A stretch of 64,000 bases of DNA, from the NCBI RefSeq assembly GCF_947305105.1, contig NZ_CAMZCS010000001.1:186001-250000 (forward strand). Direction: 5' to 3'. The translations under genes were made by a program, and so were the position numbers. The first letter of the stretch is position 1. Each line of letters begins with the position of its first letter. This DNA is from an uncultured Fibrobacter sp. (GTDB lineage: Bacteria > Fibrobacterota > Fibrobacteria > Fibrobacterales > Fibrobacteraceae). The notes under the pieces are model-generated. The model searched no databases. It saw nothing but the letters and a program-made list of their open reading frames with translations, and was not told the origin of the DNA. Of this stretch, positions 34,429-42,706 are shown one piece after another.

Positions 34429-36105
34429 ATGATGGAACTCTTTAGCAGATCTCTTGGGAAGATTCTTCTGATGACCGCAGCGGTGCTGTTTGTCGCTTGT
34501 GGCGATGATGCGAGTAGTTCCGGCCCCGAGGGCGGCGAAAGCAGTGCGGTCGAAGAATCGAGTTCTTCGGATGTTGCGCAGTCGAGCTCGTCGACAAAAA
34601 AAATGTCCAGCAGTTCTTCAAAAACCGAGGCCACTTCGTCGAGCTCGTTGCAGGCTTGCTCTTCGAGCTCCCGCAATGGCGAAAAAGACACTTCTGCGGT
34701 TCATGCTGCCGACACAACTAAAATTACCTATGCCCTCAAGCGTTTTGACGGCCCGCTTTCTAACCCGCACAAGGGTTTCACGGTCCCGACCGAAGGCCTG
34801 TGGACTTTCGTCCCAGAATTCGAATATGGGCCTTACGGTTCCTTGAACAACAAGGCGTGGGACCTTATCACGTACGGCTCCGGTTACCAGAAGTGGAACA
34901 AGTTGAACCCGGCAAAAGGCGTTTACGACTGGACAGAACTGGAAAAACTGCTGAATGGTTTGGCCGAGCACAACATGGGCTACGCCTTGCGTGTGCTGCC
35001 GTATTCCCCGTCATTTGTCAAGGGTGATGATACTCCTGAAGAAGAGTATGACTGGACGCCGTCTTTTGTTTACGAATCGGGAGCAAAGAAGGTCACTGCT
35101 ACCGTACAGTGGAACGGTTTCCATGCCACTGTTCCTGTCTGGGATGACTCGGTCTACCTGTACTATGCAAAGGAGTTTGCGAAGGCGCTGGCCGAAAAAT
35201 ATGATGGTGACCCGCGTATTGAATACATCGATATCCGCACCTTTGGTGAATGGGGCGAGTGGCATGCCTCACACCTAGACGGCAGCGAAATGCCATCTGA
35301 TTCGATAGAGATGGATTTGCTGGATTACTACGCCTCCGTTTTCAAGAAGACTCAGCTGGTGTTGCCATCCAGCGGCATGGGCGATGTGTATACGCATGCG
35401 CTTAAACTCGGCATTACCAAACGTGACGACGGATTCATCGGTATTCCCGGCAGGCCGGATTCACTGGTGCGTGCCTACGAGGCCAACTTGCCGACTATCG
35501 CCGAGAATATCGCCGGCTATACCACGATGTTGAATTACACCGACGTGATTCCTGGAGGCTATTTGAAGTGGACTCCGCAACGTTGGGTAGACGCGATTAC
35601 TACGGCCCACTTGACTTACTACGTGCTGGACCAGGACAGCGATTGCGGTTACAATTTTTACAAGGACAATAAGGCCCTTGCCGATTCCATGAGCAAGGTC
35701 ATCGGATACAATTTCACCGTTGCAAAAGCGGAACTGGTTACTGTCGCAAGTGCCAAGGATACTACAAGCACGCTGAACATTACCGTCGAGAACACCGGCG
35801 TGGCACCCTGCTTCTTCGATGTCTACATGGTGGCGGAATTCGTGGATAGTACTGGCAAGGCTCTCGCCCCAATTGGCGAGACCGTCCGCATTCCGAAGGC
35901 TACCTTCAAGGACGGCAGTTCGCAGGATTTCTCCTTTACGTATAAAACCGCTGCGGGGAAGGCGAATATCGCGACCCAGCCGGGTGTTTCCGTGGCCCTT
36001 TCGCTCTACGAAAGCGAAGATTCCTTCAAAAAAGGCCAAAATCCGACTGTCCGCTTCGATAACGACGGCCTCTTGGAAAACAAGAAACTATTGTTGAATC
36101 CGTAA
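34429..36105 (+). CDS. Surface lipoprotein, poly-Ser stalk plus DUF4832/DUF4874-like domain
   Basis: The 558-residue lipoprotein has a lipobox VAC (lipidated cysteine about 24) followed by GDDASSSGPEGGESS and a serine-rich stalk to about residue 85. The main domain (about 95-420) is a TIM-barrel-like fold of the DUF4874/DUF4832 type, similar to glycoside-hydrolase barrels: LSNPHKGFTVP, then NPAKGVYDWTELEKLL, YALRVLPYSP, IDIRTFGEWGEWH, and a C-terminal beta-sandwich (about 430-550). Family members are linked to polysaccharide handling but are uncharacterised. The FGEWGEWH acidic residues may be catalytic. Its N-terminus is paralogous to that of the next gene. Confidence 0.82.
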   Translation: MMELFSRSLGKILLMTAAVLFVACGDDASSSGPEGGESSAVEESSSSDVAQSSSSTKKMSSSSSKTEATSSSSLQACSSSSRNGEKDTSAVHAADTTKITYALKRFDGPLSNPHKGFTVPTEGLWTFVPEFEYGPYGSLNNKAWDLITYGSGYQKWNKLNPAKGVYDWTELEKLLNGLAEHNMGYALRVLPYSPSFVKGDDTPEEEYDWTPSFVYESGAKKVTATVQWNGFHATVPVWDDSVYLYYAKEFAKALAEKYDGDPRIEYIDIRTFGEWGEWHASHLDGSEMPSDSIEMDLLDYYASVFKKTQLVLPSSGMGDVYTHALKLGITKRDDGFIGIPGRPDSLVRAYEANLPTIAENIAGYTTMLNYTDVIPGGYLKWTPQRWVDAITTAHLTYYVLDQDSDCGYNFYKDNKALADSMSKVIGYNFTVAKAELVTVASAKDTTSTLNITVENTGVAPCFFDVYMVAEFVDSTGKALAPIGETVRIPKATFKDGSSQDFSFTYKTAAGKANIATQPGVSVALSLYESEDSFKKGQNPTVRFDNDGLLENKKLLLNP

Positions 36106-36120
36106 ACGCACATAAAAAAG

Positions 36121-36126
36121 TATATT
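36121..36126 (+). promoter_or_regulatory. Probable -10 box of the phosphatase-like lipoprotein gene
   Basis: TATATT, 8 bases before the ATG at 36135, after a run of A. No clear -35 box is seen. A near-leaderless start is implied. Confidence 0.35.
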
Positions 36127-36134
36127 CAAGCATT

Positions 36135-37436
36135 ATGCACTGCGTCGTAAAAATTTTCCTGTGGACGGTCGCCTTTGCCTGTATGGGCATTGTCGCTTGT
36201 GGCGACGATGATAGTAGCAGTTCCGCTCCTATGGGTGGTGAAAGCAGTTCTGTCATCGTTGAAGAATCAAGTTCTTCGATAGAGCTTTCTTCTAGTAGTT
36301 CTGTTCTTGAAAATCTGTCCAGTTCTACAATTGATTCGTCGGAATCTACGGAAAAAGTTGCCGCAAAAGAAATTACCGAGATTTCGACGACGGTCATAGA
36401 AGACACTTTGGATTTGTTCTATTACGGTTGCATGAATCTCAATTTCAAAGCGGATTCGTTCTTGACCATATTTGAACGCGGCGACCTCGTTACGTTGATG
36501 GTGGACGGCTACGACACGCTCGATGTACCGGTGGTTGGGTACAGAGGCGATGTTTCTGTAGGAGAATATCTTTTAAGTGTCGGTGATGCTACAGGTTTTG
36601 TTACGCTGGAGGTCCTTAATGGAGACCCGGCAGAAGCCATTGGTATTGGTCGCGATGTCAAATTCCCGATAAATGTTACTGTGAAAATGAAGGAAAAGGG
36701 TGGTTATGTCAAATATTTGGAGATGCGTCAACATCTGACGATGTCGTATTATTTGGAATCGTATCCGACTCTTTCCATTGAGGAATTTGCGAATTTCAGG
36801 ATGGTGAATACGACGGGAATGGGCGAGGGGGTGTTGTATCGTTCGTCAAGCCCGATCGATGCGTCGCTGGGCCGCAATCTATATGCGGATTCCTTGGCTA
36901 AGGTTGCGGGGGTCGCGACTTTCGTGGATTTTGCCGAAGTCATGGAAACGGCCATGACATACAGGGACTTTGCCGATTCCTATTATGCGACGCAGAATGC
37001 GATTTTCCTTGGCGTTCCTCCGGCATTTGTGAACAAGGTGTTCAAGGATGCGCTTGTCAGGGGGTACCGCTTTATGATTGAACATGAGGGCCCCTACCTG
37101 TTGCATTGCACTTATGGCATGGACCGGACAGGCTTCTCGATTGCGGTGCTCGAAGCGCTGATGGGGGCGACGGCCGCCGAAATCAAGGCCGATTATGCAA
37201 AGACCTTCATTAACTATTGTAGCGTGGTTGATAACGTGCAGGTTGCCTTGACTCAGGACCAGGTGGATTTGCTTAAGGATATTATCGCCATGAATCTGCG
37301 GAACTCGTACCATACGGTGGGTGTCGATATCTCGGATTTCGATAATGTCGACTTGGCGGCTGCAACAGAGAAATACCTAGTTGCACTTGGTATGGACCAG
37401 GCCGAAGTGGATGCACTTAAGAATCGCTTGAAGTAA
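36135..37436 (+). CDS. Surface lipoprotein with tyrosine-phosphatase-like domain
   Basis: The 433-residue lipoprotein has a signal peptide ending in GIVAC, then GDDDSSSSAPMGGESSS and more serine stretches to about residue 70. This stalk closely copies that of the upstream gene. Residues about 75-200 are strand-rich. Residues about 210-433 follow bacterial Y_phosphatase3 proteins: GEGVLYRSSSP, a helical part, then the P-loop LLHCTYGMDRTGFS with the C-x5-R signature intact, and ATAAEIKADYAKT. A secreted cysteine phosphatase of this family dephosphorylates tyrosine, lipids or inositol phosphates; an extracellular inositol-phosphate substrate is possible but unproven. Confidence 0.85.
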   Translation: MHCVVKIFLWTVAFACMGIVACGDDDSSSSAPMGGESSSVIVEESSSSIELSSSSSVLENLSSSTIDSSESTEKVAAKEITEISTTVIEDTLDLFYYGCMNLNFKADSFLTIFERGDLVTLMVDGYDTLDVPVVGYRGDVSVGEYLLSVGDATGFVTLEVLNGDPAEAIGIGRDVKFPINVTVKMKEKGGYVKYLEMRQHLTMSYYLESYPTLSIEEFANFRMVNTTGMGEGVLYRSSSPIDASLGRNLYADSLAKVAGVATFVDFAEVMETAMTYRDFADSYYATQNAIFLGVPPAFVNKVFKDALVRGYRFMIEHEGPYLLHCTYGMDRTGFSIAVLEALMGATAAEIKADYAKTFINYCSVVDNVQVALTQDQVDLLKDIIAMNLRNSYHTVGVDISDFDNVDLAAATEKYLVALGMDQAEVDALKNRLK

Positions 37437-38290: not shown

Positions 38291-38364
38291 CGGGATGTAG
38301 CTCAGCCTGGTAGAGCGCTTGAATGGGGTTCAAGAGGTCGCTGATTCGAATTCAGTCATCCCGA
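38291..38364 (+). tRNA. tRNA-Pro, anticodon GGG
   Basis: A 74-base cloverleaf: acceptor CGGGATG / CATCCCG with discriminator A, D-arm GCTC / GAGC, anticodon stem CTTGA / TCAAG around loop ATGGGGT (anticodon GGG), T-arm with GATTCGAATTC. The 3' CCA is not encoded. C at position 1 paired with G72 is typical of bacterial tRNA-Pro. Confidence 0.97.
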
Positions 38365-38399: not shown

Positions 38400-40166
38400 T
38401 TATGGGTTGAACCCCTTTTTTGTCCGTTTGTTCGCTTTTTGCTCTTCGGCGAGTTCTATGGCGGCAGCCCTGTAATCTTCTTCGGTTGTACGGCTGGGGT
38501 CCCAGATGATGACTCTGTTCCTGCCAGAATCTTTACCTTCGTAAAGGGCCTTGTCGGCGGTCTGGATGCTCCGGCTCGCTCCGAGTTTCGGGTCGAAGCG
38601 GGTTACGCCAAGCGTAATCGTCACCTTGATTTTGTAGTCGGCGTACATGAATTCCATGTTTTCAACCTGCTTGCGGAAGCGCTCCGCCACCACGGCGGCA
38701 CCGTCTAGGTCGGTTTCGGGGAGGAGGGTCAGGAACTCTTCCCCGCCATAGCGAGCCAGCACGTCGTAACGGCGCAGGAGCCCGCGGATAGTATGCGCCA
38801 CTTCCTGGAGCACCTTGTCGCCACAGCTGTGGCCGTAAGTATCGTTGATATGCTTGAAGTGGTCTATGTCGATGAATATGAAACAGAACGGTTTCTTGGA
38901 ACGCTCGCTGCGGCCAATTTCGTTATTGATGGTCCTGTTCATGTCGCGGCGGTTCGGGAGCCCCGTCAGTTCGTCCGTTCTCGAAATGATGTCCAGCTTG
39001 GCGTTCGCGATTTCAAGTTCGCGGGTGCGTTCCTTGACTTCTTGTTCCAGCATGTTGCGGTGGGCGTTCAGTTCGCAGATTTGCCGTTTGATGGTGGCGT
39101 GCATGGTGTTGAATGCTTTTGAAAGCTGCCCGATTTCGTCGTCGCGCCGCCCGACGTTGATTTCGTCGATATCCAAGTCGCCGTTGTTGATTTGCTTGAT
39201 GTGCGAAATGAGCTTGTTCATTGGCCGGCCGAGGATGAAGAACAGCCAGATAGCCGTGAACAGCAGTGCGATGATGGATGCTACGAGAATGATGATGCTT
39301 GACGTGATGACCGCCGTGACGAGGTTGTTGATTTCGGCTTGTGGCTGGAAGGCGAACAGGCCGAGGTCGTAGTTCGGGTCGTACACGTAGTTGGCAAGGT
39401 AGGTGTTCCCGTCGTTCAACGTGATGAACGTTGCCGTCTCGATTTCGTAGGTCTTGGGGTCGATGTCGTTGATGCCAATTTCAGAAATTTTGTGAATCCC
39501 GTTGAGCCATTTTTTCAGGTTGGGGTGGTAGATGATTTCCCCGTTGGCGTTGATGGCGACTAGGAACCCGTTTTGCCCGATATGGTGCTCCGAGAAAATT
39601 TTCCAAAGGCGCTTGGACGAAAAGTTGCCGACTAGGCTTCCGTCACCGGAGGTAAGGTCTGTGACAGCCGTGCCGAACGCTCTTGTGGGCGTGTTGTTCT
39701 CGTCGCGGTACCACGGCGATATGAGGGGGCGGTGCGGAGTTATCCTGCTGAAGTCGATGGGGTAGGTGACTTGGGCCGAGGTCAGCATCGAGTTGTCGCA
39801 AATCATCTTCTTTTCGCGGTCGAAAAGCGATACGGTTTCGCCGGAAATGAACAAGGAAGAAATGTTGTAACTCTTGAGATAGCTGGCCGCCGTGTCGTGA
39901 ATCATGCTCTGGATGGCGGATGTCTTGGCGAGTAACTCGAGGGTGCTGCCGAATCGCTGCATCTCGCTGTGGGCAGACATCGATGCCTGTTGCAGCAGGC
40001 TAGAATTGTTGTTGTGGCTCCATTCGAATATCAGGCTGAGCTGGCGCTGCGTGAAGAACGCCGTGCCCGCAACGACAATCAGCGACATGGAGACAATCAA
40101 GAGGACGATGCTCTTGAAGATGATGCTCTTGGAAATCCGGATTGTCTTGAATTCGTTGGCAGCCAT
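38400..40166 (-). CDS. Membrane diguanylate cyclase, Cache-like / HAMP / GGDEF
   Basis: The 588-residue inner-membrane enzyme makes c-di-GMP. Layout: TM1 (about 14-37), a periplasmic Cache-like sensor (about 40-295; LISPWYRDENNTPTRAFG is typical), TM2 (about 298-325), HAMP with IKQINNGDLDIDEI, a coiled coil, then GGDEF (about 400-540). The active-site motif is GGEEF (474-478), preceded exactly 5 residues earlier by the inhibitory I-site RRYD, so product inhibition is expected. It lies 5 bases behind a membrane-anchored binding-protein gene, probably its signal-input partner. Confidence 0.95.
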   Translation of the reverse strand: MAANEFKTIRISKSIIFKSIVLLIVSMSLIVVAGTAFFTQRQLSLIFEWSHNNNSSLLQQASMSAHSEMQRFGSTLELLAKTSAIQSMIHDTAASYLKSYNISSLFISGETVSLFDREKKMICDNSMLTSAQVTYPIDFSRITPHRPLISPWYRDENNTPTRAFGTAVTDLTSGDGSLVGNFSSKRLWKIFSEHHIGQNGFLVAINANGEIIYHPNLKKWLNGIHKISEIGINDIDPKTYEIETATFITLNDGNTYLANYVYDPNYDLGLFAFQPQAEINNLVTAVITSSIIILVASIIALLFTAIWLFFILGRPMNKLISHIKQINNGDLDIDEINVGRRDDEIGQLSKAFNTMHATIKRQICELNAHRNMLEQEVKERTRELEIANAKLDIISRTDELTGLPNRRDMNRTINNEIGRSERSKKPFCFIFIDIDHFKHINDTYGHSCGDKVLQEVAHTIRGLLRRYDVLARYGGEEFLTLLPETDLDGAAVVAERFRKQVENMEFMYADYKIKVTITLGVTRFDPKLGASRSIQTADKALYEGKDSGRNRVIIWDPSRTTEEDYRAAAIELAEEQKANKRTKKGFNP

Positions 40167-40171
40167 AGTTC

Positions 40172-41683
40172 TTATTTCTTCCTTTTGCGTTTATAGGCGG
40201 ATGCAAATCCGAATATGAACAGGATGGCGAACAGCCATGGCGCTATGCGCAGGTTGTTCCGGATGTGATCTGTGTTCGTCGCCTCTTTCGGTTGTTCGGG
40301 CTCTTCGGTCGAGTCGAGGATTTTCTTCCAGAGGGTCTGGAATTCGGCGAGCGTCATGACCGAGGTCCCCTTGTAGCCGAGCCTCTTGTTTATTTGTTCG
40401 GTGTACTCCATGAAAATGTTGTAGAGTTTTTCGTCGGAGTAGAGGGCGGGAATTTCAAGCTGGTCCCATACCGCACTGAACATGACCACGAGAATTTGCT
40501 CGATATCGCCCCATTCCGGGATGGTCGTGTAGGTGCGCCCTGTTTCGAGAGCCTTGACCATTTCTGTGTAGGCGGAATCTTCGGACCAGGTTTCCAGAAC
40601 TTTCACCGATGTGGGGAGGAATCCGATTTGCCGTGTGTAGGCATCCAGGTTTTCGTCCTGTGTCAGGTACAGGAGCAGGTCTTCGGCTTCGGGGCGGTTG
40701 TTCTTTGCTGGGATGGCGAGGTTGCTCCCGCCGACAAAACTGACGCTGCCTTCTGTGCCTAGCGGGATGGGGAAGGCTTCTACGCCGTCGGCCCCGATGC
40801 GCGCGTTCGAAAGGCCGCCCTGGTCGCCGAGGAAGCGCGTCTGCGTGATGATTTCGGCGGTGCTGATAATGAATGCCAGTTCGCCGTTGTTGAACAGCTG
40901 GGCAATCTGGGCCGAGTTCATCTGCAACATTTCGGGCGAGACGAGTGTGTCGAGGATGAATTTCAGGTAGCGGCCAATACCGAGCAATGTCTGCTCGTCT
41001 AGGATGTTTGCCTGCCATTTGCCGCTGGAATCTTTCTTGAGGAAGTCGCCGCCGTTGCTCCAAACCCAGGGGGCGAAGTTATGGGTGATATTCCAGTCGC
41101 TTTTGCCCGGGAGAGCGTAGGCTTTCACCCTGACTCCGTCGTCGAGCGTTTCTTTGGAATCGTTTATCTTGCGCACGGCTTTCAGGAACCCTTGGTATGT
41201 CGCGATGGATTCCTTGGTGATGCCGTTTTTCTTGAGGATGCGCTTGTTCCCGAGGACGGGGCGGATATCGATGAACCACGGGATGGAATAGATTGTCGTG
41301 TCGGAATCGATATGCGTCGTGCTCCAGCTAATCGGTACGAACCGTTCGGGCTGGATCTGGGGCAATAGCTTGTTGAGTGGCTTGATTTCGCCACGCGAAG
41401 CGAAATAGGGGACCCATGTGGTGCCGAGTTGCAAAATGTCGGGGGCCTTTTCTCCAGATTCGAGCGCCGTGGAAATCTTGTTCCATGCATCGCCCCAGTC
41501 GAGAACTTGGATTTGGGTGGGGATTCCTGTTTGCTGTGTGAACTGGGAGAGGGTCTGTTCGAGTTTTTCTTTCGGGGAGGCTCCGTTCGGCATGATCCAA
41601 ACCGTGAGTGGCTGTACAGATGCAAAAGCCGTCGGTATGGCGAATGCCATGAAAGCAATAAATCTCCCAAAAAATTTTGTCAT
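40172..41683 (-). CDS. Family 1 solute-binding protein with C-terminal membrane anchor
   Basis: The 503-residue protein has a signal peptide (about 1-21) and a full sugar-type extracellular binding-protein fold (LTVWIMPNGASPKEKLEQ, then KAPDILQLGTTWVPYFASRG, IPWFIDIRPVL, VSFVGGSNLAIPAKN and LLLYLTQDENLDAYT). It ends in a transmembrane helix at about 480-497 (APWLFAILFIFGFASA) with a basic tail, so the binding domain is tethered facing the periplasm. No ABC permease or ATPase gene is nearby. The following gene, 5 bases away, is a diguanylate cyclase. I infer a sensing rather than a transport role. Confidence 0.9.
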   Translation of the reverse strand: MTKFFGRFIAFMAFAIPTAFASVQPLTVWIMPNGASPKEKLEQTLSQFTQQTGIPTQIQVLDWGDAWNKISTALESGEKAPDILQLGTTWVPYFASRGEIKPLNKLLPQIQPERFVPISWSTTHIDSDTTIYSIPWFIDIRPVLGNKRILKKNGITKESIATYQGFLKAVRKINDSKETLDDGVRVKAYALPGKSDWNITHNFAPWVWSNGGDFLKKDSSGKWQANILDEQTLLGIGRYLKFILDTLVSPEMLQMNSAQIAQLFNNGELAFIISTAEIITQTRFLGDQGGLSNARIGADGVEAFPIPLGTEGSVSFVGGSNLAIPAKNNRPEAEDLLLYLTQDENLDAYTRQIGFLPTSVKVLETWSEDSAYTEMVKALETGRTYTTIPEWGDIEQILVVMFSAVWDQLEIPALYSDEKLYNIFMEYTEQINKRLGYKGTSVMTLAEFQTLWKKILDSTEEPEQPKEATNTDHIRNNLRIAPWLFAILFIFGFASAYKRKRKK

Positions 41684-42265: not shown

Positions 42266-42706
42266 ATGAAAAAAAGTATCTGCACTCTTCTCTGCGCCGG
42301 TGTTATCATGCTCACTGGTTGCTATGGTTCTAACGCTTGCTTCAACAAGCTTCACAAGTGGAATGGATCGCTTGGCAACAAGTGGCTGAACTCCATCGTC
42401 TACTTCCTCGGCTTCTGGATCTTCCCGGTGTACGGGATCTGCCTGTGGCTGGTCGATGGTCTCGTTCTCAACACGGTCGAATTCTGGACGGGCTCCAATC
42501 CGCTCGCTTCCGGCGATTCCTACTATGAGAAGGATGCCCAGGGCAACTCCGTTGCTGCTGTGAAGAACGCCGACGGTTCTATGTCTGTGGAACTCACCAC
42601 TGCAGAAGGCCAGAAGGCAAACCTCACTCTCCAGCGCGATGAAAACGTTGTCCGCGCTTTGGACGAAGAAGGCAATCTCGTTGCCCAGTACGAAATCGAA
42701 AAGTAA
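42266..42706 (+). CDS. DUF3332-type lipoprotein
   Basis: The 146-residue protein has a lipoprotein signal (SICTLLCAGVIMLTGC). The mature part opens GSNACFNKLHKWNGSLGNKW and carries two hydrophobic stretches (SIVYFLGFWIFPVYGICLW), as in the DUF3332 family of small envelope proteins, then a soluble tail with EGQKANLTLQRDENVVRALD. Family function is unknown. AAGGAG precedes the ATG, and TATATTTTGGAA upstream may be its -10 region. A terminator follows. Confidence 0.85.
   Translation: MKKSICTLLCAGVIMLTGCYGSNACFNKLHKWNGSLGNKWLNSIVYFLGFWIFPVYGICLWLVDGLVLNTVEFWTGSNPLASGDSYYEKDAQGNSVAAVKNADGSMSVELTTAEGQKANLTLQRDENVVRALDEEGNLVAQYEIEK

Follow-up and report, generated by a model that had tools for sequence, protein, structure and literature searches.

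What is a sugar-type solute-binding protein doing beside a diguanylate cyclase, with neither a permease nor an ATPase next to the two? The question is raised by two adjacent genes in a 64,000-nucleotide stretch of an uncultured Fibrobacter sp. genome (contig NZ_CAMZCS010000001.1, positions 186,001 to 250,000; this whole stretch is the window below), which code for SBP1, a membrane-tethered solute-binding protein (SBP), and DGC1, a membrane diguanylate cyclase (DGC). Our analysis suggests, with a probability of about 75%, that the two constitute one transmembrane receptor through which the products of fibre digestion set cyclic di-GMP (c-di-GMP). The features of the pair are as follows (TM, transmembrane helix; aa, amino acids; E, E-value; G004, a genome from another family of the phylum):

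40172..41683, minus strand: SBP1, family 1 SBP, C-terminally membrane-tethered, 503 aa (Pfam SBP_bac_8/SBP_bac_1, PDB relatives, Fibrobacter orthologues)
41618..41683, minus strand: predicted signal peptide of SBP1, Sec type, no lipobox (residues 1-22; from sequence)
40196..40246, minus strand: C-terminal transmembrane helix of SBP1 (residues 480-496; hydropathy 2.11; basic tail YKRKRKK after it)
38400..40166, minus strand: DGC1, membrane DGC, 588 aa (GGDEF and HAMP; adjacency)
40053..40127, minus strand: TM1 of DGC1 (about residues 14-38; sequence, predicted helix)
39318..40052, minus strand: periplasmic dCache-like sensor domain of DGC1 (about residues 39-283; weak dCache_1 match, G004 homologue, Foldseek)
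39237..39317, minus strand: TM2 of DGC1 (about residues 284-310; sequence, predicted helix)
39090..39227, minus strand: HAMP domain of DGC1 (residues 314-359; Pfam PF00672, E 2e-10)
38514..38978, minus strand: GGDEF domain of DGC1 (residues 397-551; Pfam PF00990, E 5e-48)
38763..38774, minus strand: I-site RRYD of DGC1 (residues 465-468, with R465 and D468; RxxD in 89/89 homologues)
38733..38747, minus strand: active-site motif GGEEF of DGC1 (residues 474-478; GGEEF in 89/89 homologues)

SBP1 comes first, and its stop is separated from the start of DGC1 on the same strand by just 5 bases (40167-40171). Its Pfam matches are to SBP_bac_8 (E 5e-28) and SBP_bac_1 (E 1e-25), and it matches no NCBIfam model, that of PotD included. 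The signal peptide, MTKFFGRFIAFMAFAIPTAFA-S, lacks the lipobox cysteine; the helix ahead of the basic tail reads IAPWLFAILFIFGFASA. This C-terminal helix is present in 77/77 SBP1 proteins, in 21/21 members of a paralogous family, SBP2, and in the single G004 protein (1/1), as against 0/19 transporter-side SBPs, a group that takes in, besides the SBPs of the operons read, two divergent family 1 SBPs (L146, L147). In one genome (G062; L077:5427-6990) SBP1 appears as two overlapping open reading frames beside an intact cyclase, due to a frameshift or an assembly error.

DGC1 has the layout TM, periplasmic domain, TM, HAMP and GGDEF; the latter two are the sole Pfam domains over the cut-off, and it has no EAL domain. 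A Foldseek search with a low-confidence model of the sensor matched dCache domains, e.g., those of PctA and Mlp24, and when PDB sequences were searched with a profile of the sensor, the only matches were to HAMP and linker regions. The 89 homologues in the motif counts are those with a GGDEF match; to judge from its sequence, DGC1 is a diguanylate cyclase with both catalytic and feedback motifs intact. As the window genome has 15 GGDEF, 3 EAL and 1 PilZ matches, c-di-GMP can be made, degraded and read there. The original prediction had described a family 1 binding protein ending in its own membrane helix, followed 5 bases later by a cyclase with intact active site and I-site, and these features bear it out. 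Promoter and terminator scans gave results at chance level, and a convergent tRNA-Pro gene (38291-38364) lies directly downstream of DGC1.

We then searched 168 genomes of the phylum, 80 of them Fibrobacter, with SBP1 and with the sensor part of DGC1. Within Fibrobacter, 66 genomes have both genes, 14 lack both and no genome has just one of them; wherever both are present they are adjacent (66/66). The same adjacent pair is also found in 15 genomes from other genera of the family. Because it is conserved across several genera, the neighbourhood is not due to chance, and a lack of conserved pairing, named in the original prediction as an outcome that would refute it, was not observed. Beyond the family, genome G165 codes for an SBP1 with 48% identity at the end of one contig and, at the end of another, for a histidine kinase whose sensor is homologous (31%), an arrangement in which linkage is unprovable.

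The closest solved relatives of SBP1 are betaGlyBP of Thermus (7c63; E 8e-64) and CbpB of Clostridium thermocellum (7x0i; E 7e-52), with which residues 25-433 align across both lobes. Three betaGlyBP crystal entries carry single pocket changes relative to the wild type (the W of 'VLDW', the W of 'GTTW' and the E of 'PWFSE'), and the equivalents of these positions in SBP1 are W63, W90 and D139, the last with D in place of E. These three, along with W136, W197, H201, N202 and W208, are identical in every SBP1 that aligns there. CbpB binds the cellodextrins G2-G5 with dissociation constants of 0.56-1.9 uM and laminaribiose with one of 10.7 uM (PMC9601137). Given the shared pocket residues and the measured sugar binding of CbpB, the predicted ligand class of SBP1 is a cellodextrin-type beta-linked gluco-oligosaccharide; a laminaribiose-type sugar is possible.

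A member of this family has already surfaced in proteomic work on F. succinogenes S85. FSU_1047/Fisuc_0617 (57.575 kDa, pI 7.77, grand average of hydropathy (GRAVY) -0.218, 31.3% identity to CbpB) was detected in cellulose treatments only in 2015, and in 2019 was given a value of 1.25 (p < 0.0001) for cellulose versus glucose, the protein thus being more abundant on cellulose; c-di-GMP in this organism is likewise raised with cellulose, about 2.5-fold (PMC4619616, PMC6851124). The protein is annotated and published as an SBP for cellobiose/cellodextrin import, and according to the authors it is not known which conditions the GGDEF proteins respond to (PMC6851124). The SBP1 proteins of related genomes have masses of about 57.5-58.3 kDa, GRAVY values of -0.19 to -0.30 and 31-33% identity to CbpB, with the pI of FSU_1047 inside their range (a few rows with over-long upstream starts were set aside). 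Since mass, hydropathy and CbpB identity fit SBP1 and not SBP2, FSU_1047 is very probably an SBP1 orthologue. SBP2 was rejected as its counterpart, having a mass of about 59 kDa, a hydropathy of -0.15 to 0.0 and 24-26% identity to CbpB.

In an SBP tree, the group with the family 1 SBPs of complete sugar operons and betaGlyBP is separate from the tethered SBP1, SBP2 and G004 proteins (support of 85 and 82 in the Shimodaira-Hasegawa-like approximate likelihood ratio test, with long branches). The simplest reading of this topology is that the tether arose once and that recruitment to a receptor followed. In G004 the tethered SBP is transcribed divergently from the gene of an 871-aa protein; this protein combines dCache_1, HAMP, Hpt and HATPase domains, and its sensor is homologous to that of DGC1 (E 3e-15). 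By homology, then, sensor and tethered SBP input recur with a histidine kinase output, and the same input would thus be wired to a different output. SBP2 (loci L058-L076, absent from the window genome) is a second tethered family: it lies in a conserved cluster of the form aroA - SBP2 - peptidase_S13/AmiA-like, shows changes at H201, N202 and N321 of the pocket, and appears to be a sugar-binding-like protein linked to a cell-wall enzyme.

Could SBP1 instead be the binding protein of a sugar ATP-binding cassette (ABC) transporter encoded elsewhere, with the neighbouring cyclase incidental? The descent of its family from transporter SBPs and the published annotation of FSU_1047 (PMC6851124) speak for this, but the permease is missing. 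As the original prediction had noted, none lies beside the pair, nor does an ATPase, and all eight permease domains in the window genome belong to non-sugar types, namely Opp/Dpp (4), CysT/CysW (2) and SsuC/NtrB (2); its other SBPs of these families are one sulfate-binding and one PotD-like protein. A related MalF-type sugar permease (query P0003, E 1e-6) was found in 0/80 Fibrobacter genomes. It does occur alongside the SBP1-DGC1 pair in genera g3, g6, g8 and g10, where complete operons (ATPase, lipoprotein-like SBP, MalF and MalG) in G044, G139, G140, G143, G144 and G148 (g3, g6 and g10) bring their own SBP; in G146 (g8) the contig begins at the permease. Since each complete operon read with a MalF-type permease has its own SBP and SBP1 stays where the permease is gone, SBP1 is evidently not needed for transport where a transporter exists and persists where it has been lost. 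For the genus we accordingly rejected a remote permease served by SBP1, and with the pair never broken we regard the transporter explanation as very improbable. With the pairing conserved and a dedicated permease not found, the earlier idea of the binding protein as the input of the cyclase is supported; the contact, the ligand and the sign of the response belong to the model set out below.

SBP1 and the DGC1 sensor have also evolved jointly. Across 58 distinct pairs, SBP distance correlated with periplasmic-domain distance once GGDEF distance was removed (partial r 0.71), above the 0.17 between the periplasmic domain and its own GGDEF, in a comparison made without phylogeny correction and between two periplasmic partners. 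A natural contrast is offered by DGC2, a cyclase copy without a neighbouring SBP in about a dozen Fibrobacter genomes, ten of which lack SBP1 and DGC1. Its clade nests within the genus, so the paired state is older. Compared with the window protein, the GGDEF domain stands at 0.72 in DGC2 and 0.70 in paired orthologues, whereas the membrane-distal periplasmic part stands at 0.33 and 0.55, respectively. Sites conserved in paired sensors are changed in DGC2 at 9/36 periplasmic versus 2/68 cytoplasmic positions (Fisher p 0.001), DGC2 being a single clade and its sensor drift hence one event; the same test on seven paired clades gave this contrast in 0/7 (p 0.14 to 1). In the membrane-distal lobe of the sensor, the SBP-less copies are altered at sites 76, 98, 109, 125, 127, 139 and 144. 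These data bear on the view that the dCache domain of DGC1 senses a small ligand of its own, with SBP1 merely co-transcribed, e.g., for oligosaccharide scavenging or buffering. Direct ligand binding is indeed common in dCache domains, with SpdE sensing proline (PMC8846402), and the SBP-less DGC2, whose GGDEF is intact, presumably functions by itself. However, the co-occurrence of SBP1 and DGC1 is perfect, SBP and sensor covary beyond GGDEF, the DGC2 sensor drifted while its GGDEF did not, and a histidine kinase whose sensor is homologous likewise has a tethered SBP as its neighbour; we thus consider an independent ligand unlikely. It is also conceivable that SBP1 is a local adaptor reporting to DGC1 the state of another envelope protein rather than free sugar, much as the likewise tethered SBP2 may serve the enzyme of its cluster. 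This we hold to be highly unlikely, as the oligosaccharide pocket is kept in all SBP1 orthologues, unlike in SBP2.

For the SBP1-DGC1 receptor, we infer the physical contact of the two proteins, the identity of the ligand, the sign of the response and the outputs, and picture its action as follows. After export via Sec, SBP1 would remain anchored to the inner membrane through its C-terminal helix, catch a beta-linked gluco-oligosaccharide in the periplasm and close. In this closed state it would dock on the Cache-like domain on the periplasmic side of DGC1, from which the change would travel through TM2 and HAMP and so govern how active the GGDEF dimer is. The products of plant cell-wall digestion would in this way set c-di-GMP, most likely upward. 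A broader proposal, to which we give even odds, is that the pair represents a receptor class of the Fibrobacterota in which an ex-transporter SBP for beta-glucan oligosaccharides serves as the tethered input of a Cache receptor with kinase and cyclase outputs swapped; in Fibrobacter it would be the cellulose sensor behind raised c-di-GMP, outliving the matching transporter.

Several observations weigh against an SBP1-DGC1 receptor. The sensor of the window DGC1 scores 19 bits against dCache_1, under the Pfam cut-off of 45, so that of the Cache-HAMP-GGDEF architecture originally predicted the HAMP and GGDEF parts stand firmly and the Cache part is weak, with the homologous G004 sensor passing at 56.5 bits. 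Single-chain AlphaFold2 models were poor (mean predicted local distance difference test score 60 for the sensor and 57 for SBP1); the SBP1 model was discarded and that of the sensor used for a loose fold match only. The 14 double absences may represent just one or two losses, and the distance and site statistics rest on related sequences with few independent events. Finally, the authors who measured the rise of c-di-GMP on cellulose put it down to different GGDEF proteins, and the partner DGC is not apparent among the changed proteins that they tabulated for F. succinogenes (PMC6851124, PMC4619616).

A few further observations concern the surroundings and relatives of this system. In the clade of the window genome the pair adjoins a DUF3332 gene (window 42266-42706; L148:5307-5744), which is the place of DGC2 in other Fibrobacter, and elsewhere (L176:7265-12090) it sits between UbiX-like and UbiA-like genes; replacement or relocation is possible. 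Also in the window (34429-37436), two consecutive genes code for predicted lipoproteins that have serine-rich linkers, one with DUF4832 (a weak GH42-like match) and one tyrosine-phosphatase-like (PF13350). The PotD-like SBP of the window genome (L174:2814-3872, contig 28) has no PotB/PotC-type permease among the eight permease domains. The MalG permeases of the related sugar operons measure 640-740 aa (L136:7785-9794, L179:6978-9161, L129:2276-4201) and carry about 350-400 additional residues that separate the first helix from the permease domain. In two distant members of the phylum (G021, L163:1080-4444; G022, L164:4862-8114), an SBP of the ABC_sub_bind family (PF04392) directly precedes a dCache-HAMP-PAS histidine kinase, which makes up a further pair of SBP and receptor.

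Fibrobacter is a major rumen cellulose degrader in which c-di-GMP rises on cellulose, and the pair provides a concrete candidate for both the sensor and its ligand. SBP1-DGC1 would very probably tell the cell when fibre is being digested. The pair also suggests that a supposed component of a cellodextrin importer is instead a receptor subunit: FSU_1047/Fisuc_0617, which matches the SBP1 orthologues, was published in the former role and not as a signalling protein. The nearest solved relatives, CbpB (about 31% identity) and betaGlyBP (Thermus thermophilus HB8), share pocket residues with SBP1; unlike it, they are transporter SBPs with an ABC permease, and their solved chains lack a C-terminal membrane helix.

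Among known c-di-GMP systems, NspS-MbaA of Vibrio cholerae, with homologues in Sinorhizobium meliloti, likewise has its SBP encoded directly ahead of a c-di-GMP enzyme of the membrane, and ligand-loaded NspS acts on the periplasmic domain of MbaA to change c-di-GMP (PMC8079147). However, the ligands of NspS are polyamines, and the protein is presented there as a periplasmic binding protein (PMC8079147), whereas SBP1 is tethered and of the cellodextrin/beta-glucoside type; MbaA combines GGDEF with EAL and acts as a phosphodiesterase, whereas DGC1 is a GGDEF-only cyclase. Because DGC1 lacks EAL and SBP1 is not PotD-like, their domain make-up places the pair outside the NspS-MbaA system. To our knowledge, the SBP of the Salmonella ArtI-STM1987 system is not tethered to the membrane by a C-terminal helix of its own. 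There, a dCache_1 diguanylate cyclase responds to arginine by way of a periplasmic binding protein, but ligand and SBP are of the amino-acid kind (PMC8846402). CuaD-CuaSR of Ruminiclostridium cellulolyticum resembles the pair in having an SBP dedicated to sensing a cellulose breakdown product and encoded beside a sensor that does not itself bind sugar, and differs in its lipoprotein SBP, its histidine kinase with an AraC-type regulator and the absence of c-di-GMP (PMC10384115). For sugars, a 2022 census of c-di-GMP sensing lists only the phosphotransferase system protein EIIA-Glc acting on a phosphodiesterase (PMC8846402), and in the literature we came across no description of a diguanylate cyclase under the control of an oligosaccharide-binding SBP. 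By analogy, SBP1-DGC1 would work like NspS-MbaA and ArtI-STM1987, in which an SBP controls a c-di-GMP receptor, and would have the sensing task of CuaD; such control has precedents, and the novelty lies in an SBP that is tethered to the membrane and predicted to bind an oligosaccharide, in a pairing that spans the lineage along with loss of the transporter, and in outputs swapped between kinase and cyclase.

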